IMG/VR virus record: IMGVR_UViG_3300009431_000035 | Span: 1-43,339 of that record | DNA length: 43,339 nt | Origin: a virus | Reading direction: 5' to 3' (one strand) | Shown: positions 20,588 through 41,586 of the stretch, piece by piece | Position numbering within the stretch: position 1 is the stretch's first letter | How the letters are laid out: each line of letters begins with the position of its first letter | Program-made: the position numbers and the translations under genes | The notes under the pieces: model-generated | Told to the model about the DNA's origin: nothing | Databases searched by the model: none | Seen by the model: only the letters and a program-made list of their open reading frames with translations

Positions 20588-20810
20588 CGGATGGCCTTTC
20601 GATGGTGGTGACGCGCGTGCCGCAGTGGCGGCACTCGCGGCGGCGGCGGATTCCGCCGCGCGTGGCCGGGCGGGTGTACAGGACCCGGAAATGTCCGCAG
20701 CCGCATCGCCGGCAGACGATGCCCTCGGCGTCGGGGGCCACGCCCGGGGTGATGGGCTCGCTGTAGCGCTTCCGATCGCGTTCCATGTGGTAGGTCTCCA
20801 GGGCGCTCAT
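20532..20810 (-). CDS. NrdR/Ogr-like zinc-ribbon protein
   Basis: 92 residues, ATG at 20810 in ATGA overlap with the large terminase. A zinc ribbon occupies residues about 30-68: IVCRRCGCGHFRVLYTRPAT, then RRRRECRHCGTRVTTIER. The spacing CxxC...CxxC and the Arg-rich 'RRRREC' match the N-terminal ribbon of NrdR and the phage transcription activator family Ogr/Delta. An alternative start at 20786 has GGAGACC six bases upstream. The role may be late transcription activation. Confidence 0.76.
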   Translation of the reverse strand: MSALETYHMERDRKRYSEPITPGVAPDAEGIVCRRCGCGHFRVLYTRPATRGGIRRRRECRHCGTRVTTIERPSDDQQPADADRPDDMADPG

Positions 20811-23125
20811 TTGCGCGGGCCTCCGGTGAGGTCGGCCTGGCTGTACCGTTTGCGGCGGCGCTGTTGCTGGGCGTCCATGCCGGGCGTGCGGCAGCCGGCC
20901 ATGGCGCCGGCCACGGCACAGCCGGTGAGGCAGTCCAGCCAGTGGTTGTCGGGCTTCGACGGTCGCAGTTTCCATTCGTGGACGGTGCGGCCCTGCCCGT
21001 AGGTTTCGACCCAGGTCTCGGCGGCGGCGACGTGCTGGGCGATCAGTTCGTGGTCCTTGGGGCTCTTGCCGAAGAGGGTCAGGCAGCCGGGCTCGCCGTC
21101 GGGGGTGCCGATGGCCCGGTGGACGAACGATTTCCAATAGTTGACGTCGACCGCGATGTGGGGGAATTCCTGGGTTCCCTTGACGGTCGGGGTGTACCAG
21201 TGATGTCCGTGCTTCTCGCCGGGCTTGCGGCGGTAGGCGGCCATCGGTTTGTTGCGGGCGCCGATGCCCTGGCCGCGTGACAGTTCCATTGCCGAACCGC
21301 CGGCCTTGTGTTTGACGGCGGCGACCACCTTGGGCTTGTAGCCCATGTCCACCAGCAGCCGCTGGATGCGGCGGACGCCGTGGCCGCCGGCGACCTTCCA
21401 TTCGCGGTGCAGCAGCTGGGAGACGGCGGCCTCGAGGCCGGCCATGATGGCGCCATCGGTGCCGGCGCCCGGGTGGGCGCGTCGGAGCGTGTTGCGGGCG
21501 TTGTGCGTTGTGAACCAGCCACGGCCTTGGTCGGGCCAGGTGCCGTAGTCGATCAGGTACCCGGTGAAGTTCGCCTCCCAGGCGGCCACGGCCCAGAACA
21601 GCACGCGGTCGTGGACGTCGACAAAGGCGGTGACGGCGGTGGCGTCCAGGGGTATCTGCCCGCGGGGTCGGCCGTTGATCTTGGCGGCGACGTTTTCGGG
21701 CGTCAGGACGTCATCGGCCAGTTGCTCCTGCATCGGCTCGTTTTGGTATTCGGCAAAGAACGCCTCTTCATTCCGCAGCTTCAGATTCATCGCATGCTGT
21801 AGGGCGCTGAGTTCCTTGCCCGGGCGGTGGTCATAGAAGTGTTCCCAGGCGACCTTGGCGCCGGCGTCCATCGCGGCGCGGTGCTTGCGGTAATACGCGG
21901 TCGCCTCCTGCCCGCGGCGGCCGGCCTGGATGCTCTGGCGGCGGCGCTCGGCGTATTCGTCCCACAGTTTGGTCTGCTTCGGGAAGGCCTCGACCAGGCG
22001 GGTGCACTGGCTCTGCCAGTCGGGGCTCTTCTCGACGTCCATCAGCCGGTCGGTCAGATCGTCCTGGTATATCTTCGTACAGAGGACCACGCCGGCGATG
22101 TCAATGCCCGGGCCGGCCATGCCCAGGACGTCGCCGTTGATCAGCTCGAGCCGGTATCGGGTCTGCGTTTCGCTGCGGGCCGATTCGCGGGTCTGCGGGT
22201 CATCCAGGAGGACCAGGCCCGGGCGGATGATGTCGCCGTCGGGGCGGGTGTATTGCTGGCCACGGATGTTGCCGGCCTCCAGGCTGGTCGCGGAAAACAC
22301 CGCGCCTCGAGCGGCGCCGCGGTCGAGTCCGCGTTCGGCGAAACTGGCGGGCAGTTGCTCCGGCCAGATCGTCGGGAAGACCACCATGTCGCGTTCCCAT
22401 CGCACGTGGGTCAGGCGGCCGTCGGCGTGCTGCTGCAGCTGGCGCTTGCTCGAGTTCTCCAGGCAGCGCAGCGGGTAGAGGGCCTCGGGGAAGTCGGCGG
22501 CCAGCAGGGCGTTCTCCAGGATGGTCATCTTCATCGGGGCCATGACCAGGCGGCGGGTGTGGGGCTCGCTGGCGGTGACGCAGCTGACGTAGGGGATGCG
22601 GTCGCCCAGCAGGGCCCACTCGGCGGCCGTGCGGGCCAGGGTCGTTTTGCCGGCGCCGCGGTACATGGCGAAGGCGAACAGGCCGCCGTGCAGAATGACG
22701 TCCTGGAGGATGGCGATGGCCCGTAGGTGGTCGGGCGACCAGGGCCAGTGGAATGCCCGCGGGTGGTAGGTCTCGCAGAACAGCCGCAGGTCGGCCAGGG
22801 CCGCTTCGCGGCGGGCCCAATCTTCGACGTCGGGGATCGGGCAGATGTCCTGGGCGGCCTTGGTGGCGGCCCGGCCGGCGGCGGCCTGGCGTTTGCGTTT
22901 CTCGACGTAGTCACCGCCGGCGGGCTTCGGCCGCTCGTGCTCCAGGACCAGCCACCGGACGTACCGCAGCAGGTGTAGGGTCTTAGGCTTGGCGCCGGCG
23001 ACGCGCTGGGCGGCGGCGTCGAGTTGGCGGCGCAGCCGGCTGCGGGTCAGCACGGTACCCAGCGGCGTGCCGTTGACCAGGCGTAGCAGGTCGGTCTGTG
23101 TCAGGGCCTGCAGGTCAGCGGCCAT
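20807..23125 (-). CDS. Phage terminase large subunit
   Basis: 772 residues. The ATPase Walker A is AFAMYRGAGKTTLA (residues 151-164) and Walker B is GLVLLDDPQ (303-311). A nuclease domain follows (LDATAVTAFVDVHDRVLFWA, with Asp in a strand), plus MELSRGQGIGARNKPMAAYR and a final PDNHWLDCLTGCAVAGAMAG, a C-terminal block typical of GpA-type terminases. It cuts concatemers and drives DNA into proheads through the portal. The N-terminal 100 residues are a helical extension, making the protein longer than many relatives. The ATG overlaps the small-terminase-like gene by 11 bases. Confidence 0.93.
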   Translation of the reverse strand: MAADLQALTQTDLLRLVNGTPLGTVLTRSRLRRQLDAAAQRVAGAKPKTLHLLRYVRWLVLEHERPKPAGGDYVEKRKRQAAAGRAATKAAQDICPIPDVEDWARREAALADLRLFCETYHPRAFHWPWSPDHLRAIAILQDVILHGGLFAFAMYRGAGKTTLARTAAEWALLGDRIPYVSCVTASEPHTRRLVMAPMKMTILENALLAADFPEALYPLRCLENSSKRQLQQHADGRLTHVRWERDMVVFPTIWPEQLPASFAERGLDRGAARGAVFSATSLEAGNIRGQQYTRPDGDIIRPGLVLLDDPQTRESARSETQTRYRLELINGDVLGMAGPGIDIAGVVLCTKIYQDDLTDRLMDVEKSPDWQSQCTRLVEAFPKQTKLWDEYAERRRQSIQAGRRGQEATAYYRKHRAAMDAGAKVAWEHFYDHRPGKELSALQHAMNLKLRNEEAFFAEYQNEPMQEQLADDVLTPENVAAKINGRPRGQIPLDATAVTAFVDVHDRVLFWAVAAWEANFTGYLIDYGTWPDQGRGWFTTHNARNTLRRAHPGAGTDGAIMAGLEAAVSQLLHREWKVAGGHGVRRIQRLLVDMGYKPKVVAAVKHKAGGSAMELSRGQGIGARNKPMAAYRRKPGEKHGHHWYTPTVKGTQEFPHIAVDVNYWKSFVHRAIGTPDGEPGCLTLFGKSPKDHELIAQHVAAAETWVETYGQGRTVHEWKLRPSKPDNHWLDCLTGCAVAGAMAGCRTPGMDAQQQRRRKRYSQADLTGGPRK

Positions 23126-23408
23126 CGGCGATTCCCTTGTTCAGCCAGGCGGCGTAGTGGACCAGGTTGATGCGGCCGGCGGGGTCGGCCGGGGCGCCGG
23201 CCTCGAGGTGGCGTTTGATGGCGTCGGCTGGGACCTTCAGCAGCTTGGCGGCCTGGGCGACGGTCAGCCGGGTCGGGTCGGCCGGGCGGGGTTTGCGGGG
23301 CGTGGCCTTCTTGCGCGGCTTCGGCTTCCGCTTGGCGGTGGCCTTCTTGCCGGCGGGCCGGCGACGGGGTTTCTTCCGGGCGGTTTTCTTCGCGCGCGAC
23401 GATGCCAT
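23115..23408 (-). CDS. Small-terminase-like DNA-binding protein
   Basis: 97 residues with GGAGACCCCG ribosome binding site. Residues 1-45 are an extremely basic Lys/Arg/Pro/Ala tail (KKATAKRKPKPRKKATPRKP). Residues 46-90 form a helix-turn-helix: LTVAQAAKLLKVPADAIKRH, then LEAGAPADPAGRINLVHYAA, as in Nu1/excisionase-type winged helices. Directly upstream of the large terminase this is probably the DNA-recognition subunit. The tail may give non-specific DNA binding. Confidence 0.77.
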   Translation of the reverse strand: MASSRAKKTARKKPRRRPAGKKATAKRKPKPRKKATPRKPRPADPTRLTVAQAAKLLKVPADAIKRHLEAGAPADPAGRINLVHYAAWLNKGIADGR

Positions 23409-23478
23409 CGGGGTCTCCGGTGGCGAGCGGACGTGGGCGCGACGTTCGGGCCCGTGCGGCCCGTGGTGTGCGGGGTCT

Positions 23479-23508
23479 ATTCTGTCATATCGACCGCCCC
23501 GCCGGCAA
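23479..23508 (-). promoter_or_regulatory. Candidate sigma70-type promoter for the packaging operon
   Basis: On the minus strand TTGCCG (23508-23503) and CAGAAT (23484-23479) are separated by 18 bases, about 70 bases before the first packaging gene start at 23408. The same CAGAAT -10 with an 18-base spacer occurs in the candidate promoter at 28038-28067. Two of six -35 bases deviate. Confidence 0.4.
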
Positions 23509-23657
23509 GGGTCCAGCGGGCCCGTGACGGCGCCCGGGCGACGGTCGAGATCTCCCGCGCCACGCGAGCGGCGTCACGGCCTCCCATCCTGGCGGCGGTG
23601 GTGTATGCTGGGGCCTGGCCCGGGTCGGCTCAGGCCCGGGCGGAAAGGCGGTTTGAC

Positions 23658-23843
23658 ATGGCGAAGAAGATCTCGCCGGAAACGCAGGACGCCATCGACG
23701 CCCACGCTCGGGCGCTGACCTCGAAGGCGGTTGCCGATCGGGAGGCGCGCGTCGCCGAACTGCTGGCGATGCGCGTGCCCGTGGCCGAAGTCGACGAGTT
23801 CGTGAAGCGGACCGAGGCGTTGGTGCCGAAGGGCCGCCGCTGA
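23658..23843 (+). CDS. Small helical protein, first gene of the plus-strand island
   Basis: 61 residues, ATG at 23658 behind GGAAAGGCGG. The sequence reads MAKKISPETQDAIDAHARAL and TSKAVADREARVAELLAMRV, then VPVAEVDEFVKRTEALVPKG. It is fully helical, charged and without membrane segments. A GCCCGGG/CCCGGGC stem lies directly before the ribosome binding site. It is the only gene of this strand between the packaging genes and the island proper and is followed by a very strong hairpin. Function unknown. Confidence 0.6.
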   Translation: MAKKISPETQDAIDAHARALTSKAVADREARVAELLAMRVPVAEVDEFVKRTEALVPKGRR

Positions 23844-23869
23844 CGTCGCGGTCGGTCTGGGCGCAGGCG

Positions 23870-23900
23870 ACGGGCCCGTCGGCGATGCCGGCGGGCCCGT
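23870..23900 (+). terminator. Very strong hairpin after the 61-residue gene
   Basis: Arms 23871-23883 and 23887-23899 pair over 13 positions with one T-G wobble, the flanking A/T adds a fourteenth pair, and the loop is GAT. Only TT follows, so it is not a classical intrinsic terminator. It could block exonucleases, pause polymerase or be an RNase III site. Confidence 0.45.
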
Positions 23901-23981
23901 TGCGCATCCGGGCCTGGCGGACCGGCGCTGGCGAAGGAGTGACGCCCGACCGGTAGGTCGGGCCGGTCCGCAGCCGGGTCG

Positions 23982-24010
23982 GTTGTAGCATCGGGCGATG
24001 CCGCTGACAA
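23982..24010 (-). promoter_or_regulatory. Candidate minus-strand promoter with TTGTCA / TACAAC
   Basis: TTGTCA (24010-24005) and TACAAC (23987-23982) are spaced by 17 bases, a good sigma70-type match. The spacer contains GCATCGCCCGATGC, a perfect palindrome arms-plus-centre, which could be an operator. It would read leftwards under the plus-strand 61-residue gene towards the packaging operon about 570 bases away. Confidence 0.42.
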
Positions 24011-24276
24011 GCCGTGCTGGCGGCGCCGGCCGGCGTCGGCCCCGGCCGGGCCAGGGGGTCATAAGTGCCCTTCTCAAAAGGGGTTCCCCGCAGATTTCGA
24101 CACTTTTTTTTCGCACACAACTGTCGAACACGCGGGCTGATAGCCTGCAAGTGCCCTAGCCGCAACACTTTAGGACTTCCCATCGTCGGAATCGGCTGTA
24201 ACATGCCACCATGAAGATCGAACTGAACAACGCGGTTGGCGGCGGCGAGGCGGCGGGCCGCGTGGGAGATAAAACC

Positions 24277-24636
24277 ATGTCTGACAACGATCAAGCGTTC
24301 GGGCGGTTCTCGACGGTTCCGGCGGCGTGGGACGGGATGCGGCTGTACGACTGGGGTCAGGCCGGTCTCCGGTCGCAGGGGAATTGCTGGGTTCGGGCCG
24401 AGGGGCGTCGGCCTCGCAAGTCGTTTGACTTCCACGTCGGCACCTGCGAGTTCGAGGTCCTGCCGTGCGGCGGCGACCGCAAGTTCCTGTATCGGGTGAA
24501 GGCCATTGCCGGCAGCGAAATGTGGCCGGTCTACGAGCGGGCCGGGAAGTTCTGGGCGCGTCGCTACTACCTGGTGCCGGCGATGGCCATGCGGATGGCT
24601 CGCGAGCAGGAAGCCGCCCAGGCGGCGGTGGCGTAG
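24277..24636 (+). CDS. Hypothetical protein of the plus-strand island
   Basis: 119 residues from the ATG at 24277, chosen because GGGAGATAAAACC precedes it. An in-frame ATG at 24211 lacks a ribosome binding site. The sequence reads MSDNDQAFGRFSTVPAAWDG, then MRLYDWGQAGLRSQGNCWVR. It has a beta-rich aromatic core (SFDFHVGTCEFEVLPCGG, KFWARRYYLVPAMAMRM) with several Cys. No family is recognised. The gene is followed by a tandem hairpin spacer and two more small genes in the same direction, probably one transcript. Confidence 0.66.
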   Translation: MSDNDQAFGRFSTVPAAWDGMRLYDWGQAGLRSQGNCWVRAEGRRPRKSFDFHVGTCEFEVLPCGGDRKFLYRVKAIAGSEMWPVYERAGKFWARRYYLVPAMAMRMAREQEAAQAAVA

Positions 24637-24701
24637 TGCGGCCGGGGCCCGCACCCGGCCGTCGCCGCTGGCGGCGTCCGGGCCCGGGCCTGGCATAGGG
24701 C
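24636..24701 (+). repeat. Structured intergenic module, copy 1
   Basis: Directly after the stop codon, GTGCGG/CCGCAC (24636-24641, 24649-24654) forms a hairpin. A second pairing follows, CGCCGC/GCGGCG around 24663-24676, then TCCGGGC, CGGGCCTGGCAT (24685-24696) and a third stem CCTGGC/GCCAGG just before the next ribosome binding site. The order of elements matches the spacer at 25270-25333. Confidence 0.5.
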
Positions 24702-24727
24702 CAGGCAGAAATCGAAAGGACAGAACG

Positions 24728-25003
24728 ATGGCGAAGCGCAACAGGCCGGCAACTTACGAGGCGGAACATAAGGGTCGGAAGGTCCGCGTGGCGGTCCCCG
24801 ACGCGGTCGACGAGGGCGAGCTGTTCGCGGGCCTGCAGGACAACCTCAGCCCCGAGGCGGTGGCGGCCATCGCGGCGTACCTGCAGCCGGTGGCCACGAA
24901 CAACGCGGCGGTGAACCGGCAGGTGGCGTGGTTCCGGGATCGGCTGGTCGAGCTGCTTGGGGCCAGCCAGTTCGACGTGCTGTGCAATGACCTCGGTCTC
25001 TAA
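24728..25003 (+). CDS. Hypothetical protein of the plus-strand island
   Basis: 91 residues behind GAAAGGACAGAACG. The sequence reads MAKRNRPATYEAEHKGRKVR, then VAVPDAVDEGELFAGLQDNL and a long helical part VNRQVAWFRDRLVELLGASQ. It has no membrane segment or metal motif. The leader ATCGAAAGGACAGAACG is nearly repeated before the next gene (ATCGGAAAGGGCAGAACG), so the two genes may descend from duplicated cassette units or share translation control. Function unknown. Confidence 0.66.
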   Translation: MAKRNRPATYEAEHKGRKVRVAVPDAVDEGELFAGLQDNLSPEAVAAIAAYLQPVATNNAAVNRQVAWFRDRLVELLGASQFDVLCNDLGL

Positions 25004-25020
25004 TCGGAAAGGGCAGAACG

Positions 25021-25263
25021 ATGGCATCGAATCAGACGGCGACGGGCATGCGGAAGGTGACGGTCAGGTCGGCTCGGGTGTACACGAGGAAGGCGGCGGT
25101 TCAGGACGCGGCGGTCATCCCGGACCGGCTCGCGGAACTGACGCTGTTCGTGCTGGGCATGCACGCGGCCAACGGCGACTTCGGCTGGGTGACCGACATG
25201 GTCGCGGAATTCGAGGCGGGCAACTTCGAGCCGACCGAGGCGCTCTCGGCGGTGGAATTCTGA
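25021..25263 (+). CDS. Hypothetical protein of the plus-strand island
   Basis: 80 residues. The N-terminal third is basic (MRKVTVRSARVYTRKAAVQD). The rest is acidic and helical (ELTLFVLGMHAANGDFGWVT), ending EPTEALSAVEF. It follows the 91-residue gene by 17 bases and has the same type of ribosome binding site. A tandem hairpin spacer comes next. The basic/acidic split suggests a small nucleic-acid or protein-binding factor. No family known to me. Confidence 0.63.
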   Translation: MASNQTATGMRKVTVRSARVYTRKAAVQDAAVIPDRLAELTLFVLGMHAANGDFGWVTDMVAEFEAGNFEPTEALSAVEF

Positions 25264-25269
25264 GCAGTG

Positions 25270-25333
25270 GTGCGGGCGGCCAGGCCCGCACGCGGACGTC
25301 GCCGGCGGCGGCTTCCGCGTCCGGGCCTGGCAT
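25270..25333 (+). repeat. Structured intergenic module, copy 2
   Basis: A perfect hairpin GTGCGGGC (25270-25277) / GCCCGCAC (25284-25291) is followed by a second stem CGCGGA (25291-25296) / TCCGCG (25314-25319), then GTCCGGGCCTGGCAT (25319-25333). The same order is seen at 24636-24696 and, less exactly, at 23870-23918. No poly-T follows. Confidence 0.5.
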
Positions 25334-25363
25334 TCGGTCGGGCCTCAAATTGGGAGACGCATC

Positions 25364-25993
25364 ATGAATGCGAATCAGGTAGTCACTGGCGAGTTGTATC
25401 GGGTCTCGGGTCGGGCTGGCGTGGCCATCGTGCGGCTGACGCGGAAGCGTGACGGCAAGCCCGGCTGGGACGGCATCGACATCGCCACGCGGCGTGGCGT
25501 GACGGTGGCCTCGGCGAAGCGTGTCCTCACCAGGTGCGACCGCAATGGGAAGGCCCTCGAGTCGGCCTTGGCGATCCCCGCCGATCGGGCGAAGCCGGCC
25601 CGCAAGAAGCCGGCGAAGCGTGGGCGGCGTCGGTCGGCCGAGGACCTGGCCGAGGAAATCGCCACGGCGGCCGACGCCAAGACGGCGGGGAAGTCCAAGG
25701 CCAAGGGCGGCCGCAAGGCCAAGGCCAAGCGTCGGAAGGTGGGCATCCTGGACCTGGCGGCGCGGCTGCTGGCCCAGGGCGGCAAGCCGCAGACGCCGGC
25801 CCAGCTGGTGGCCACGGCCCTCGAGCAGAAGCTGTGGTCGACGTCGGGCAAGACGCCGGCGGCCACGCTCTATGCGGCCATCATCCGGGAGATCTCCCGG
25901 GCTGGCGACCAGGCCCGCTTCCGCAAGACGGCGCCGAATACGTTTGAGGCCACCGCCGCCGGGCGGGCCTGGGCGAAGAACCAGGCGGCCTGA
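25364..25993 (+). CDS. HARE-HTH domain protein with basic linker
   Basis: 209 residues with GGGAGACGCATC ribosome binding site. Residues 1-70 form a small domain (MNANQVVTGELYRVSGRAGV, ending with SALAIP). Residues 75-120 are a Lys/Arg/Ala linker (KPARKKPAKRGRRRSAEDLA). Residues about 125-200 match the HARE-HTH winged helix: KVGILDLAARLLAQGGKPQT, then LWSTSGKTPAATLYAAIIRE and RFRKTAPNTFEAT. This domain occurs in chromatin and restriction-related proteins and is thought to bind DNA. As last gene of the island it may regulate the others or sense DNA state. Confidence 0.8.
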   Translation: MNANQVVTGELYRVSGRAGVAIVRLTRKRDGKPGWDGIDIATRRGVTVASAKRVLTRCDRNGKALESALAIPADRAKPARKKPAKRGRRRSAEDLAEEIATAADAKTAGKSKAKGGRKAKAKRRKVGILDLAARLLAQGGKPQTPAQLVATALEQKLWSTSGKTPAATLYAAIIREISRAGDQARFRKTAPNTFEATAAGRAWAKNQAA

Positions 25994-26012
25994 TCGGTGC
26001 CGGCCCTGGACG

Positions 26013-26053
26013 AAGAAGGGTTGCCGCCCTACCGGCGGCGGCCCTTCTTTTTT
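26013..26053 (+). terminator. Intrinsic terminator of the plus-strand island
   Basis: A long stem GAAGGGTTGCCGCC (26015-26028) pairs with GGCGGCGGCCCTTC (26034-26047), with two T-G wobbles and a five-base loop, and is followed by TTTTTT. It ends the plus-strand operon. Its right arm and T-run also encode the KKKGRRR end of the convergent minus-strand gene. Confidence 0.82.
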
Positions 26054-26352
26054 GCGCGCTGGCTGCGGCGGTCGCTGCCGGGTGGCCTGCGCTTCGGCGT
26101 CAGCGTCAGCGGCAGGCCGGCGTCGACCAGGGCCTTGGTCATCGTGGAGTGGCTTTGCTCGATGAAGTCCAGGGCCCGGTCGCTGAACTTGACCAGGTCG
26201 GCGGCGGCCGTCTTGACGGCCTTGGGGTCGGTGCCGTCGGCCAGGTCGCGGGCGGCCTCGCGGACGCCGATGATGCATCCCCGGGCCAGACGGCATTCGG
26301 TCAGGGCTCGGTCGCCCCGGGTCTTGGGCTTGCCGCTCCAGGTGCGTTTCAT
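26029..26352 (-). CDS. Hypothetical basic helical protein after the methyltransferase
   Basis: 107 residues, ATG at 26352 in ATGA overlap with the ParB-methyltransferase gene. It begins MKRTWSGKPKTRGDRALTEC. A helical centre (VREAARDLADGTDPKAVKTA, LVKFSDRALDFIEQSHSTMT) is followed by a very basic tail (RRSQRAKKKGRRR). The basic ends suggest nucleic-acid binding. The last codons lie inside the plus-strand terminator stem. Coupled translation suggests action together with the methyltransferase, for example as an accessory DNA-binding factor. Confidence 0.66.
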   Translation of the reverse strand: MKRTWSGKPKTRGDRALTECRLARGCIIGVREAARDLADGTDPKAVKTAAADLVKFSDRALDFIEQSHSTMTKALVDAGLPLTLTPKRRPPGSDRRSQRAKKKGRRR

Positions 26353-27986
26353 TTCCGACCGCCCTTGCGACGGCGGGCCTTCTTGCCGGCGCCCTTGACG
26401 GCGGCGCGTTTGGCGCCTGTGCCGCGCGTGGTCGGGGCGGCGGCGGCTTTCTTGCGGGGCCGCCGGCGGCGGCGCTTGGGGCCCGCCTGGCGTTCGGCCT
26501 TGCGGCCGGTGAAGGCCTCCCATCGCTGGACGATGACGTCGCAATAGAGCGGGTCGAGTTCCATCAGCCGGGCGTGGCGGCCGGTCTGTTCGCAGCCGAT
26601 CAGGGTTGAGCCGCTGCCGCCGAATAGGTCGAGGACCCGGTCTCCGTGGCGGCTGCTGCAGTGGATCGCCCGCGTGGCCAGTTCGACGGGCTTCTCGGTC
26701 AGGTGGACCATCTTCTGCGGGGTGACCTTGTGAACGCGCCAGACGTCGCTGGGCGGGCCCGACCGCAGCGTGGCGTCGGCGCCCTCGGCCAGGGTCAGTT
26801 CGGTGTGCTTGCCCTCGGGCACGTCGCTGGTGATGTAGATCCGGGCGCCCGTGGGGCCCTCGAGCACCAGGCCCGGGCCGACGTCGGTGGGCTTGTCGCC
26901 GGTCGGGCCCTCGCCGGATCCGGCCGGCGGCGCGACCTGCCAGACGTCCGGGACGTTGTTGAGGCCGAAGGCGAACCAGTGCCCGGCGCCCTCGCGCCAG
27001 CCGTAGACGCACCACTCGTGGTTGCCCATGAAATCCTTCGGGGTCAGGACGGGGTGTTCCTTCACCCAGATCAGGGCTTGGCTGAAGTAGAGGCCGCTCT
27101 CGGCCAGGGCGGCGGGGTAGTTGGCGCAGTTGGCATAGCCGCCCCAGATGTAGAACCCGCGGCCGGGCTCGAGCACCCGGGCCATCTGGCCGAACCATTC
27201 GCGCAGCAGTTTCTCGAACTCGGCCGGCGGCATGAAGTCGTTTTCGAGGGCCCGGTCGCGGGGGCGTAGTTTCCGTGTGGTGCGTTTGCCCTTGTTCAGC
27301 CCGCGGGCCAGGTCGAAGGCCTGGTGGTGGCTGACGCCCTTGCCGCCGAAGCTGGACAGGCCGGCGGCGATGGCGTTGCTGCTGCGGGGCTCGACGCGGA
27401 CGTTATAGGGCGGGTCGGTATTGACCAGCTGCACGGCCTGGCCGTCGACCAGGCGGTCGACGTCGGCGGTGTCGCCGCTGTTGCCGCAGAGCAGCCGGTG
27501 GTCGCCCAGGATGTACAGGTCGCCCGGGGCGGTGGTCGCCTTGTCGGGCGGCTCGGGGATGGCGTCGGGGTCGGTCAGGCCCGTCAGCAGGGCCGGGTCG
27601 AGAAGCGCGTCTAGTTGGCCGGCGGGGAAGCCCAGGGCCTCCAGGTCGAAGTCCACGGCCTGCAATTCGCCCAGTTCGTGGGCCAGCAGTTCCATGTTCC
27701 ATTCGGCGTCCTCGCCGGTGCGGTTGTCGGCGATGCGGTAGGCGCGGGCCTGGTCCGGGGCCAGGTCGGTGGCGATGTGGACGGGCACTTTCTTCAGGCC
27801 CAGTTTGGTGGCGGCCTTCCACCGGGTGTGCCCGACGATGATGACGCCGTCGGCGTCGGCCACGATGGGCTGGCGGAATCCGAACTCGCGGAGGCTGCGG
27901 GCGACCTTGTCGACGGCGTGGTCATTGATGCGGGGGTTGCGTTCGTATGGCTTGAGCCATTCGAGCGGCTTCAGGGCGACTTTCAT
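26349..27986 (-). CDS. ParB-like nuclease / DNA methyltransferase fusion
   Basis: 545 residues with GGAGACCCGCC before the ATG. Residues 1-90 are a ParB/Srx-type domain: NPRIND, IVGHTRWKAATKLGL and ADNRT. The methyltransferase has NTDPPYNV (catalytic DPPY, residues 191-194) first and the SAM site LDLFGGSGST (FGGSGST at 455-461) last, a beta-class order for N6-adenine or N4-cytosine methylation. HLTEKPVELATRAI fits. The C-terminal 50 residues are a Lys/Arg/Ala tail. Such fusions are common in phages and protect DNA from restriction or control packaging. No cognate nuclease is adjacent. Confidence 0.9.
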   Translation of the reverse strand: MKVALKPLEWLKPYERNPRINDHAVDKVARSLREFGFRQPIVADADGVIIVGHTRWKAATKLGLKKVPVHIATDLAPDQARAYRIADNRTGEDAEWNMELLAHELGELQAVDFDLEALGFPAGQLDALLDPALLTGLTDPDAIPEPPDKATTAPGDLYILGDHRLLCGNSGDTADVDRLVDGQAVQLVNTDPPYNVRVEPRSSNAIAAGLSSFGGKGVSHHQAFDLARGLNKGKRTTRKLRPRDRALENDFMPPAEFEKLLREWFGQMARVLEPGRGFYIWGGYANCANYPAALAESGLYFSQALIWVKEHPVLTPKDFMGNHEWCVYGWREGAGHWFAFGLNNVPDVWQVAPPAGSGEGPTGDKPTDVGPGLVLEGPTGARIYITSDVPEGKHTELTLAEGADATLRSGPPSDVWRVHKVTPQKMVHLTEKPVELATRAIHCSSRHGDRVLDLFGGSGSTLIGCEQTGRHARLMELDPLYCDVIVQRWEAFTGRKAERQAGPKRRRRRPRKKAAAAPTTRGTGAKRAAVKGAGKKARRRKGGRK

Positions 27987-28348
27987 GGCGGGTCTCCGCT
28001 GGGGACCCGCGTGGGGCGTGGGCTGGCAGCCAGGGGTATTCTGCCGCGCCGGGGATGCAGCTGACAAGGCCGGGCTTTTCGTCGCCCGGGCCCGGGCTGC
28101 CGGCCTGGCGTTCTGAGGGGTCCCCCGCCGCCACACGTCGCCACACAGGCGACTTCTCGGGGCGGGCGGCCATCCAGGCGGCTTGGGGGCCCCCAGGCCA
28201 CACAGGCGGCCCTGGGGCGAAGCGGCGACATAGGGTGTTCACGCAGGCAGGAAATATAAAGACCGCGTCCGCCCGTTCTCGGCCCGGGGCTCTGCGTCGG
28301 CGACCTTGGGGAGTACCTTTTGCCTTTGCGTCGGCCGGTCCGCGTGCG
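27987..28348. other. Intergenic region upstream of the methyltransferase
   Basis: 362 bases with no convincing gene. It has two hairpins with related ACACAGG-type loops: GTCGCC/GGCGAC at 28137-28153 and CCCCAG...CTGGGG around 28191-28217. CACACAGGCGGCCCTGG at 28198-28214 is shared with the tail spacer near 6630. A promoter candidate lies at 28038-28067. AAATATAAAG near 28253 is the only AT-rich spot. Confidence 0.42.
28038..28067 (-). promoter_or_regulatory. Candidate promoter for the ParB-methyltransferase operon
   Basis: On the minus strand TTGTCA (28067-28062) and CAGAAT (28043-28038) are 18 bases apart. Transcription would begin near 28030, about 45 bases before the start codon at 27986. 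The -35 belongs to the recurring motif CTTGTCAGC-GCATC. Confidence 0.45.
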
Positions 28349-28948: not shown

Positions 28949-29118
28949 TGCGGTTTCTCCCGGGTGCTGCAGGCGAGGATGGCGAAGCCGAGGATGGCCA
29001 TGCAGCCGCCGACGATTAGCCAGGCGGCCAGGTGCTCGCGGTTCGTTAGGAATAGCACCAGCAGGCCCGCCCACATCGTGGCGGCGCCGATGGCCATGCC
29101 GGCGATGGCCCAGGTCAT
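28810..29118 (-). CDS. Small membrane protein with two transmembrane segments
   Basis: 102 residues, ATG at 29118 in ATGA overlap with the Gp37/Gp68 gene. The first 52 residues contain two hydrophobic helices (AIGAATMWAGLLVLFLTN and LAAWLIVGGCMAILGFAILA). The remaining 50, Pro/Ser/Thr-rich, lie in the overlap with the next gene and may be a by-product of that overlap. It could be a holin-like or exclusion protein. The size and topology fit a class II holin, but no lysin is adjacent. Confidence 0.6.
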   Translation of the reverse strand: MTWAIAGMAIGAATMWAGLLVLFLTNREHLAAWLIVGGCMAILGFAILACSTREKPQWESTPTSAPAPNLATAGRPSPTSLRPCCSLIACSRPTRTPSPPTG

Positions 29119-30143
29119 TGGCCTGCCTCCGGCCTGGCGTCGTAGGTCTTACCGTCCAGGCGTCGGCCCGTGCGGCGTCGGCCGATCAGGTACATCGGGG
29201 CCTGTGTGCTGGTGTGGACGTCGGGCTTCACGTTGCCGGCGTTGCCCTCCAGGACCTCGCCATCGTCGCGGTCGACCAGGACCACGCGTGGCGTGCCCTT
29301 GGACGCGTCGGCGTGCGCGTCGCCGGCGTAGGGCGTCCACTCGCCCCAGGCCTTGAAGTGGTAGGCCAGGCCGTGCTCCTCGCAATCATCGCGCAGCTTG
29401 CGGGCCCAGTCGGGGTGCATCGGCCTGGCTTCATCCTTGGGGTCGGCCGTCTCGCCGCCGACGTAGATCCCGGCGAAGCACGAGCCCGTGCCCTTGCACG
29501 CGCTGCAGGCGATGGCGTTCGGGTCGGTCTCATGGTAGCCCGTGCCGTCGCACTCGTAGCACGCCCCCAGCGGCCGGGCCTGGCCGAAGGCTTGGCTGAG
29601 GACCTCGGTGCAGTCGTCGCCGCAGTGGCCGGCGGGCTCGAGGAAATCGACCGGCCCGATCAGCGGTTCGCAACTGGCCACGCGGAAGGCGGCGGGGATG
29701 CGCCTGATCAGCGGCACGCGCCAGCGGGCGTTGGCTTGATTCTCGACGGTGACGCCCAGGCCCACGTTGGCCAGGGGCCAATCGTGCGGCAGGCGGTCCG
29801 GGATGCGCTCGGGGCGCTTGGTCAGCAGGATGTAGGTGTTCCAGGGCGTCTGGCGCATCATCGTCCAGGTGTCCTCGCGCCAGGCGTCGGCCCGCGGGTC
29901 GAAGTAATCGCTCAGCGAGCAGACAAAGACCGTGCGCTGCCCTTCGTCGGGCTTCGGCCATTTCAGCGGCGAGGTGTAGCCGTCGGCGGCCGCCTGGGCG
30001 GGCCCATCGTGGAAGGCGCCGCGGCCGGTCCGCCTGGCCCACCGGGCGGCGTAGCAGTTGAAGCAGCCGGCGCTGCACGGCGTGCAGCCGATCCAGGGGT
30101 TCCACGTGGCGTCGGTCCAGCTGATGTCGGTGGTCAGTCCCAT
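29115..30143 (-). CDS. Phage Gp37/Gp68 (DUF5131) family protein with DnaJ-type zinc insertion
   Basis: 342 residues. The start shows the family signature ISWTDATWNPWIGCTPCSAG with Cys23-x3-Cys27-x2-Cys30, the spacing of a radical-SAM cluster, followed by FVCSLSDYFDP and ILLTKRPERI, all typical of DUF5131. Residues about 190-225 insert ACYECDGTGYHETDP and ACSACKGTG, two CxxCxGTG elements as in DnaJ zinc fingers. The enzyme function of the family is unproven. ATG shares a base with the stop of the upstream gene. Confidence 0.88.
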   Translation of the reverse strand: MGLTTDISWTDATWNPWIGCTPCSAGCFNCYAARWARRTGRGAFHDGPAQAAADGYTSPLKWPKPDEGQRTVFVCSLSDYFDPRADAWREDTWTMMRQTPWNTYILLTKRPERIPDRLPHDWPLANVGLGVTVENQANARWRVPLIRRIPAAFRVASCEPLIGPVDFLEPAGHCGDDCTEVLSQAFGQARPLGACYECDGTGYHETDPNAIACSACKGTGSCFAGIYVGGETADPKDEARPMHPDWARKLRDDCEEHGLAYHFKAWGEWTPYAGDAHADASKGTPRVVLVDRDDGEVLEGNAGNVKPDVHTSTQAPMYLIGRRRTGRRLDGKTYDARPEAGQ

Positions 30144-30355
30144 CACAGCACCTGCCTTAGGTCGACCACGCGGGCCGGCGGTAGCTTCTGGCGCAGCGTG
30201 CGGTCGAATTGGTCGCTGTCGGCGTCGTGGCGGACGGCGATCAGTTGGACGAAGCACTTGCACTCCACGCCTTCGCCCGTGACGCCGTTCCACACGCGGG
30301 CTTCGACGCCGTTGATGTGTGTGATCTGGTCAGTCGCTTCCATCGTGATCTTCAC
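30143..30355 (-). CDS. Conserved small phage protein
   Basis: 70 residues with a GTG start after GGAGACCGACA. The sequence reads MKITMEATDQITHINGVEAR, then VWNGVTGEGVECKCFVQLIA and ends LRQKLPPARVVDLRQVL. I recall close relatives ('ATD.IT.ldGv.vRvW.G') in many unrelated phages, usually without a known role. A beta-rich fold with HDADSDQFDRTL is predicted. It is co-translated with the Gp37/Gp68 gene. Confidence 0.74.
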   Translation of the reverse strand: MKITMEATDQITHINGVEARVWNGVTGEGVECKCFVQLIAVRHDADSDQFDRTLRQKLPPARVVDLRQVL

Positions 30356-37827: not shown

Positions 37828-38811
37828 ATGGGTAGCCGGGCACAACGTGACGCCCGGGGCGCGTCGCCCGGCGGGGCAATGTCGCCGATGCTGGAATCGT
37901 CGGCGGCCTTCCTCGGCATGCTCGCGTTGCGGGCAAAGGACAAACAGGTGCGGGCGTCGGCCGCGATAATCCGGCGGTTTGTCTGGACGGCCGGCATCAG
38001 CGAGCCGGGTCAGATCACCGCCGAGGCGGTGGCGGCCTACCTGGGGGAGATGAAGCGTGCGGGCCGGTCACCGAAGACGCTGCACAACCACGCGACCGCC
38101 CTTCGGACGTTCTGTGATTTCCTCGTGCGGGTCAGGCATGTGCTGGCGGCGAATCCGTGCGCGGACGTCCGGTTGCCTGACCTGGAAGAACGGCCGCCGG
38201 TCTGGTTGTCGCAGGGCGAGTTGGCCGTGGCCCTCGACGTCGCCCGGGCAAACGACATCGTCGGCGAGTTGATCATCCCGTTGGCGACCGGTCTGCGGCG
38301 CGGCGAGATGACGCGGCTGCTGTGGGCGGACGTCGACGTGGCCCGGCGGACGCTGCTGGTCTGCAAGAGCAAAGGCAGACGCCCGCGGTCGGTGCCGCTG
38401 TCGGACCTGGCGGTCGAGGCCTTCGAGCTGCAGCACCGGAAAACCGGCGGGTTCAGGTTCGTGTTCCCTGGCCGCACGTGCCGGCGCGACGGCGGCGACT
38501 GGGTCGACCGGCCTCGGGGGCAGAATACCTGGCGGCGTTTGTTCCTTCCCATCCAGGAGGCGTTGCCTAAGCTGCAGGGCCTGGTCGGCACCGGGCGGAT
38601 GTATCACACCTTGAGGCATACGTTTGCGAGCCTGGCCGCCCAGGGGAACGTGAACCTTTACAAGCTGGCCCGGTGGATGGGCCATCGGGACATTCGGACC
38701 ACGGAGATCTACGCGCATCTACGCGACGGGTATGACCGGGACATCGAGCGAGGCTCGGCGTTGGCGCCCGGCGTGCTGTCGGGAAGGAGACGGGAATGTT
38801 CAGACGAATGA
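37828..38811 (+). CDS. int: Tyrosine recombinase / phage integrase (int1)
   Basis: 327 residues with GGGAGGCGTGCG ribosome binding site. The N-terminal core-binding domain (residues about 25-110) contains ITAEAVAAYLGEMKRAGRSP. The catalytic domain has Arg157 in PLATGLRRGEMTRLLW, Lys182 in CKSKGRR, His260 and Arg263 in YHTLRHTFASLA, His286 in MGHRDIR and the nucleophile Tyr295 in TTEIYAHLRD. All catalytic residues are present. It lies 255 bases from a tRNA-Leu 3' half, so it probably recombines attP with a host tRNA-Leu gene. A lipoprotein gene overlaps its end. Confidence 0.94.
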   Translation: MGSRAQRDARGASPGGAMSPMLESSAAFLGMLALRAKDKQVRASAAIIRRFVWTAGISEPGQITAEAVAAYLGEMKRAGRSPKTLHNHATALRTFCDFLVRVRHVLAANPCADVRLPDLEERPPVWLSQGELAVALDVARANDIVGELIIPLATGLRRGEMTRLLWADVDVARRTLLVCKSKGRRPRSVPLSDLAVEAFELQHRKTGGFRFVFPGRTCRRDGGDWVDRPRGQNTWRRLFLPIQEALPKLQGLVGTGRMYHTLRHTFASLAAQGNVNLYKLARWMGHRDIRTTEIYAHLRDGYDRDIERGSALAPGVLSGRRRECSDE

Positions 38812-40524: not shown

Positions 40525-41586
40525 CTATCCGAAGCGGCGGGCGGCATCGATGGCCACGGCCCGGTCGAGTTCGGCGTAGGTCTCGGCGACGGCCAGGCTG
40601 TGCTGGCCCAGCAGCGCCCGGGCGGCCTCCAGGCCCAGTTCGCGGCGGATGCGGGTGGCGGCGGTGTGGCGCAGCTGGTTCGGCGACCAGGCGGGGATAA
40701 GCTGCCGGTTTCCGGCCATCTTGCGGTCGCGGTTGGCGCGGTCGATGGCGTATTGCACCGCTCGCCAATAGGACCGGGACGTCCATCGCTGTCCTGGGGG
40801 CCGGCGGCGGCGGCCGACCGATCGGTCGGGGCGGTGGCGGATGCGGCGGGCCAGGCGCCGGCGGCGGTCGCGGCGTTCGCGGGCGGCCAGGGCCGGGGTG
40901 AAGACGGGGGCATCAAGAGCTTTCCCCTTCCGCATGTAGGGGTCGAGGACGGCCTGGGCTTTTGGGCCGATCGGGACGTCGCGGGCCTTGCCGTGGTGGA
41001 GCGTCTTGTGCATCGGTGGGCGGTACATCCAGACCTTGCCGGTGCGGTCGACGTCGACGGCCCGCAGGGCGCAGATCTCGCCCGGCCGCATGCCGGTCAG
41101 TAGCTGCAGGCGGACCATCGCCTGCAGGCTGGCCGGCAGATATGGCAGCGTGGCGTCGACCCAAGTCTCGGCGACCGGTTCGACGGGGTCGGTCTCGCGT
41201 GCCGGCGAGCGGCCGCGGCGCAGGCCCTTGACGCTGGCCAGGGCGGCGTCGGCGCCCGGGGGCACGAGTTCCTCGCTGGCCGCCCAGGTCCAGGCCCGGC
41301 GTATGCGACGGGTCATGGCGTTGACGGTATTGCGGGCCAGCTGGCGGTCGACCAGTTGCTGGCGGATGGCCTTCAGCAGGCGGGGCCCGAGATCTGCGGC
41401 GGGCCGGTCGGCGACCACGTCCAGGGCGGCCAGGGCTCGGCGCATGTTGTCGGCCTCGCCGGTGGGCGTGCCGTCGGGGCGGCGGTAGTACTGCACGGCG
41501 TGCTCGAGGTACCGGGTGACGATCTGACCGATCGTCATTTCTGCCGGCGGCGGGCCCTCGAGCGGAAGATGGGCGCTGTCGGTCAT
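40525..41586 (-). CDS. Second tyrosine recombinase (int2), Planctomycetota type
   Basis: 353 residues with GGAGATCGCC ribosome binding site. The core-binding domain starts TIGQIVTRYLEHAVQYYRRP, which I associate with integrases of Planctomycetota. Catalytic residues: Arg167 in LTGMRPGEICALR, Lys194 in PMHKTLHHGK, Arg306 in NQLRHTAATRI (with Asn303 where His is usual in HxxR), His329 in LGQHS and Tyr337 in ETYAEL. The His-to-Asn change is shared, as far as I recall, by that family, so the enzyme is probably active. Its substrate site is unknown. Confidence 0.9.
   Translation of the reverse strand: MTDSAHLPLEGPPPAEMTIGQIVTRYLEHAVQYYRRPDGTPTGEADNMRRALAALDVVADRPAADLGPRLLKAIRQQLVDRQLARNTVNAMTRRIRRAWTWAASEELVPPGADAALASVKGLRRGRSPARETDPVEPVAETWVDATLPYLPASLQAMVRLQLLTGMRPGEICALRAVDVDRTGKVWMYRPPMHKTLHHGKARDVPIGPKAQAVLDPYMRKGKALDAPVFTPALAARERRDRRRRLARRIRHRPDRSVGRRRRPPGQRWTSRSYWRAVQYAIDRANRDRKMAGNRQLIPAWSPNQLRHTAATRIRRELGLEAARALLGQHSLAVAETYAELDRAVAIDAARRFG

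Follow-up and report, generated by a model that had tools for sequence, protein, structure and literature searches.

A repeated intercistronic RNA element in a conserved operon of small genes beside the terminase genes of Planctomycetota-type phages

Gene content of the island

The sequence studied here (the window) is the complete IMG/VR virus record IMGVR_UViG_3300009431_000035, 43,339 bases in length. Genes for the terminase large subunit, portal, head, protease and tape-measure proteins are present in it on the minus strand. An island of small plus-strand genes is enclosed by minus-strand genes, with the terminase genes (20807-23408) on one side and a ParB/DNA-methyltransferase gene (26349-28136) on the other, and the gene calls agree with an earlier note on this DNA, which had described a run of five plus-strand genes opposed to the rest of the phage. 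The gene at 26349-28136 encodes a fusion of a ParB-N domain with an N6/N4 DNA methyltransferase; the product matches type II methyltransferase models, and the gene adjoins the operon in four close relatives as well. Elsewhere in the window, the minus-strand gene at 29115-30293 gave a strong match to PHROG 2045, a family of unknown function, and its product is presumably similar to the Gp37/Gp68 (DUF5131) family. Two separate tyrosine-recombinase domains are encoded on opposite strands, at 38278-38727 (plus) and 40564-41139 (minus).

All five island genes are read from the plus strand. Gene 1 (23658-23843) is an open reading frame of 61 amino acids with GAAAGG 5' of its ATG; no relatives were detected when they were looked for, and it is not clearly a member of the operon. 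Gene 2 (24277-24636) belongs to an unnamed family and encodes 119 amino acids, or 141 if translation starts at 24211; the alignment of its relatives indicates that 24277 is the more likely start. No matches to it were found in a search of bacterial genomes. Gene 3 (24728-25003, 91 amino acids) is kept in about 30 related loci, mostly directly 5' of a HARE-HTH gene, and is predicted to fold into a beta-hairpin and four helices with good confidence (pLDDT 87); the prediction for gene 2 was poor (pLDDT 65), and neither predicted structure had a match in the structure library. For gene 4 (25021-25263, 80 amino acids) a search for relatives was likewise negative.

Gene 5 (25364-25993, 209 amino acids) ends in a HARE-HTH domain (Pfam PF05066, residues 130-194, E = 1.1e-9, 39 bits against a cut-off of 25.9), in accordance with the HARE-HTH protein expected at the island end, as far as the assignment of a domain goes. 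The domain is the same as in other HARE-HTH proteins, but in gene 5 it is combined with an N-terminal region of no named family and with a lysine/alanine-rich, basic linker, and is encoded in a phage operon. Neither a nuclease domain nor a defence context was found for gene 5, and genes 1-4 gave nothing above the cut-off of any curated family. The earlier suggestion of an anti-restriction or defence function was not supported, none of the five proteins exceeding the cut-offs of PADLOC or of the named NCBIfam families. The operon is closed at approximately 26012-26053 (plus) by an intrinsic terminator with a 17-bp stem and a T6 tail (-34.4 kcal/mol, z -3.8), in line with the strong terminator of the earlier note.

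A conserved operon beside the terminase genes

Thirty-two viral loci were retrieved with the terminase large-subunit protein, and locus L041 with the HARE protein. L009, L010, L011 and L041, all close relatives, have a reverse-strand island at the same place, and in three of these four gene 2 and the HARE gene stand at its ends with variable small genes between. Gene 3, the HARE gene and the adjoining genes for methyltransferase and terminase are present in L011 (2300-4900), and gene 2 and the modules described below are absent; its genes are packed, with the stop codon adjoining the Shine-Dalgarno (SD) sequence, and it provides a natural module-free comparison.

A search with the HARE alignment found 268 viral loci, of which 80 were kept, and 237 loci in genomes of bacteria and archaea; among the latter, almost every locus that was retained carried the label Planctomycetota, in many cases Phycisphaerae. 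The terminase large-subunit gene (terL) lies opposite to the HARE gene and divergent from it, 0.35-3.1 kb away, in 72 of the 73 loci where both were seen. The gene families recur in similar order over about 75 loci, ending in the gene 3 family and HARE, with one cluster of this analysis being a mixed single-linkage group. Because the island is found at the same place, opposite to terL and in a recurring gene order, it represents an operon conserved among phages of Planctomycetota type and not a sporadic insert. The same evidence contradicts the earlier view of the island as an independent accessory system (moron), i.e., a sporadic insertion missing from relatives. The viruses that carry the element probably infect Planctomycetes bacteria, and no HARE relative of this kind was found in 50,697 annotated phage records.

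A leader richer in A and T (24060-24210, plus; 55% GC over 24050-24210) is partly kept in relatives. It is the probable promoter region of the operon and possibly a packaging-related site. Its motifs are TTTTTT(T)CGC.CACAACTGTCGAACACG, then CATAAGTG, and a -10-like box (TAACAT, TAATAT or TATTAT) before GGTTGAACGATG. A scan of 23400-26400 for the sigma-70 consensus, which covered the consensus only, gave no promoter match. Counterparts of the leader separate the terminase genes from the operon in L041 (4600-4745) and L010 (3800-3945, minus). Another intergenic or leader sequence, GGAATATTCCGGAATCCGCCTTGCAT..CATGCCCTGATC..GAAAGGAG, was seen in L093 (261-362), L103 (4915-5016) and L121 (4477-4584), and its CATGCCCTGATC part only in L187 (5880-5950); it is conserved in sequence, promoter-like, and lies ahead of small genes in operons of this type. 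In another subgroup (L082, L083, L085, L089, L116 and L118) a terminator-like hairpin, AGCCCGCTCGT.GCGGGCTTCGCTGTTTTTG, is located within the 51-63 nt that precede the HARE gene.

Repeated modules between the genes

Direct comparison of the gap after 24636 with that after 25263 gave 61 nt at 82% ungapped identity. When the gap 25264-25364 was used as the query, the copy at 24633 scored 66.2 bits (5e-14), and the next best match in the 43 kb record 31 bits. Module A (24643-24707, plus) forms a long hairpin, H1, with a 1x1 mismatch and a [4/4] interruption; according to the pairing analysis an alternative short hairpin, H2, can form between 24688-24694 and 24700-24706. Module B (25280-25344, plus) is the top-scoring member of the RNA family, with its H2 between 25323-25331 and 25337-25345. 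The covariance model scored the two modules at 60.2 and 75.5 bits, respectively, and its sole other match in the window was an antisense echo of module B (38.5 bits); the minus-strand operons are thus free of the module, as the earlier note had stated.

A similar module had also been reported after each of the genes ending at 23843, 24636 and 25263. The latter two hold, and the first does not. The sequence after gene 1 (23844-23960, plus) contains a strong, GC-rich hairpin (z -3.7) that has 19 nt at 89% in common with the 3' arm of module B at 25313, and the next gene start is about 250 nt away; with no match to the covariance model and an alternative pairing no better than in shuffles, it was rejected as a third copy. 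The stem reported ahead of gene 1 is no more stable than shuffled sequence (z +0.44) and was likewise rejected as a family member. The established modules in the window are therefore two, not three or four. No module is present in the 17-nt gap between genes 3 and 4, and Rfam 15 gave no matches above the gathering score in the window.

Structure of the element

Each element takes up the space between the stop codon of one gene and the SD of the next, the 5' strand starting 0-15 nt past the stop in the core modules. H1 consists of an 8-bp lower helix, the 1x1 mismatch, a 4-bp helix, the [4/4] interruption and an apical helix. The mismatch is present in all 13 members (CC in seven, AC in five, CA in one), and the interruption, modelled as unpaired, can close partly in single members. 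In the 13-member alignment, which was fitted to the covariance model, 95.9% of the cells of the 17 pairs are paired, two-sided compensatory changes occur at 7 of them, and covariation is 0.342 against 0.178 in shuffled and at most 0.12 in slid alignments. An independent MAFFT alignment of 12 members gave similar values (96.9% of cells paired, two-sided changes at five pairs, covariation 0.307 against 0.165 shuffled). When the partner was slid by one column, H1 pairing fell to about 46%. Exceptions within the H1 pairs are G-U in 24 cells and A-C in 7, with 9 of the 24 G-U cells falling at one pair and independence being limited by the relatedness of the members. This excess of G-U favours a sense-strand RNA rather than DNA or an antisense product.

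In H2 the 3' strand of H1 is paired with the segment just 5' of the SD, in 98.7% of the cells, compared with no more than 60% after sliding. The covariation of H2 is weak (one pair, equalled by 164 of 500 shuffles), and part of its pairing follows from sequence similarity because H1 and H2 share a strand. For several core modules the overlapping arrangement of H1 and H2 is rarer in shuffles, only part of the modules being individually unusual. Pooled over 33 gaps, which were chosen by eye, the overlap score of 182 is marginally above all shuffles (mean 154, maximum 179). H2 is thus considered likely, and a switch between H1 and H2 speculative. Stable hairpins are common because of the very high GC content.

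Distribution of the RNA family

The covariance model, built from 12 sequences, recovered 13 copies in seven viral or planctomycete contigs among about 2.2 Mb searched. Reading of the gaps gave four modules in L010, three in L009, one in L041 and none in L011; L088 and L094 have one module each. L187, a planctomycete MAG contig with a module 5' of a gene 3 homologue, was added by the model and is the sole independent recovery, the other 12 copies being the training set. The informative outcome of this search is consequently the absence of the element elsewhere, the minus-strand operons of the window included: beyond the 13 copies only antisense echoes or matches of at most 27 bits were obtained. 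Every clear copy lies on the coding strand in a gap of the same island, 5' of a downstream SD and ATG, and the copy at 3451-3511 of L009 reaches into the final codons of the gene before it. The copies have structure, strand and location in common, and their presence in related phages is the conservation for which the earlier note had called as a check. Together with the compensatory base changes, it supports the claim made there of repeated processing or regulatory RNA elements.

A collection-wide pattern scan returned the known members and four weak matches (at most 20 bits), which are probably due to chance. The more distant hairpins of L064, L065, L078, L098, L107, L109 and L121 are alike in look, and were not accepted into the family, their alternative-pairing scores individually not exceeding those of shuffles. 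Copies within a genome are on average 83% alike and those of different genomes 70%, with differing, unrelated flanking genes; from these values it is suggested that the element may have been copied or gene-converted inside genomes. It is in one clade that copies of the element separate the operon's cistrons. The operon as such can do without the element, because L011 is module-free and most HARE loci have gaps of only 12-40 nt. In many relatives unrelated simple hairpins are found in the same gaps.

Discussion

Repeated intercistronic hairpins as a kind are already known from T7 and from the ESAS of cluster K mycobacteriophages. The RNA family described here appears to be undescribed so far, since no Rfam match was obtained and no annotated phage was found with a HARE relative of this kind. 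The early RNA of T7 is cut by RNase III at five sites (PMC4858673). Like T7 sites such as R1.1, several irregular hairpins would lie here between cistrons of one polycistronic phage transcript, as suggested by the gene spacing, near the next ribosome-binding site. Where T7-type hairpins are of about 20 bp, irregular and intercistronic, the element has 17 conserved pairs, the 1x1 mismatch and the [4/4] interruption, and occurs in island gaps only. It differs from the T7 sites in being GC-rich, in its second, overlapping hairpin and in belonging to a planctomycete-type phage operon; no sequence relation is claimed, and cleavage here is putative. In Streptomyces, RNase III cuts at the [4/4] loop of the rpsO-pnp intergenic hairpin (PMC10126417), which likewise combines an intercistronic position, a GC-rich organism and a [4/4] internal loop, but is a single chromosomal site, whereas the present element is repeated in a phage.

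The ESAS/SAS of cluster K mycobacteriophages are repeated inverted repeats situated 5' of where translation begins in some of the non-structural genes; their function is unknown and the ESAS consensus varies by subcluster (PMC3203893). The element resembles them as a repeated inverted repeat upstream of translation starts, but is one long gap-filling hairpin, confined to a single operon and with base-pair covariation; no match with two or fewer mismatches was found to the 13-bp ESAS/SAS sequence at the start site, GGGATAGGAGCCC. The PeSL of T4-type phages (PMC4503421) are promoter/stem-loop cassettes, with stem-loops between small accessory genes as here and an early promoter joined to the stem-loop; in contrast to these, the modules lie in a region (23400-26400) without a promoter match in the consensus scan and in an operon of recurring gene order that is not shuffled.

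No module contains a T-run (T4 or longer), and the operon end of the same phage has its T6 terminator. Since the gap-filling elements have no T-runs, attC core or recognisable promoter, processing, insulation or attenuation remain as explanations. RNase III-type intercistronic processing or insulation of the operon mRNA is ranked first, by analogy, because of the cleavage of T7 RNA at five sites and of the Streptomyces hairpin at its [4/4] loop; we regard it as the best mechanism, though tentatively and with somewhat less than even confidence. Against it count the module-free L011 and the short gaps of most HARE loci, the weak covariation of H2, the marginal pooled overlap score and the ease with which stable hairpins arise at such a GC content. 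In the nascent polycistronic mRNA the element would fold into the long imperfect hairpin H1, which a host double-strand RNase (RNase III) may cut near the interruption, or which would at least insulate the cistrons. Planctomycete hosts are generally known to have RNase III. After cutting, the 3' strand of H1 could re-pair with the segment just 5' of the SD to give H2; alternatively, H2 could form when a ribosome reaches the stop codon next to the 5' strand, terminates there and blocks H1. The next cistron would thereby begin with a short stem at its 5' end and keep its ribosome-binding site accessible, and the outcome would be separately translated and separately stable mRNAs for the small proteins, as when RNase III cuts the early mRNA of T7.

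A translational or transcriptional attenuator, in which translation of the upstream gene, a ligand or a protein chooses between H1 and H2, is somewhat unlikely. The closeness of the 5' strand to the upstream stop codon, the ability of the 3' strand to pair both ways in several members and the retention of both alternatives in L041 as helices of 9-10 bp are all consistent with it; however, the SD lies beyond the c strand and is sequestered by neither state, no U-run follows either hairpin, and H2 is short with weak covariation. It is likewise somewhat improbable that the elements are passive stem-loops which stabilise the mRNA or insulate translation as cistron spacers without specific cleavage: the unrelated simple hairpins that fill the same gaps in many relatives indicate that any stable stem might do, but the mismatch and the 3' segment conserved in the clade exceed in specificity what a spacer would require. 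A bolder version of the two-state idea, which we consider distinctly unlikely, is a phage RNA copied between unrelated small genes and uniform per genome, the same strand of which would pair upstream (H1) or downstream (H2), with upstream translation or a phage protein deciding the processing and expression of the next gene.

Explanations at the level of DNA or transcription termination are less probable still. The uniformity of copies within genomes beside unrelated flanking genes, the middle genes that differ between relatives and the tyrosine recombinases encoded by the phage could point to a dispersed DNA repeat serving as a recombination site, with integron attC-like or PeSL-like shuffling of cassettes. 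The attC core motifs RYYYAAC and GTTRRRY are, however, absent from the 14 gaps scanned, the gene order recurs unshuffled over the loci compared, the excess of G-U exceptions points to sense RNA and the region has no promoter match; recombination is therefore very unlikely, and an integron attC site was rejected. The least probable explanation considered is that the modules are weak or Rho-dependent terminators which set graded expression levels across the operon, for in spite of GC-rich stems directly 3' of stop codons, the modules have no T-run in a phage that uses T6 at its operon end, and H1 is far longer than a terminator stem and conserves its mismatch. As intrinsic terminators, with a GC stem and a T-run, the modules were rejected; both features are found at 26012-26053.

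Based on these results, RNase III-type processing or insulation is the reading that we tentatively prefer for the RNA family, which is defined, backed by covariation and carried by phages of a phylum whose phages have seldom been studied. The analysis also brings to light a widespread, functionally uncharacterised operon next to the terminase genes, and the element in it offers a concrete test bed for the separation of small cistrons in a GC-rich phage.
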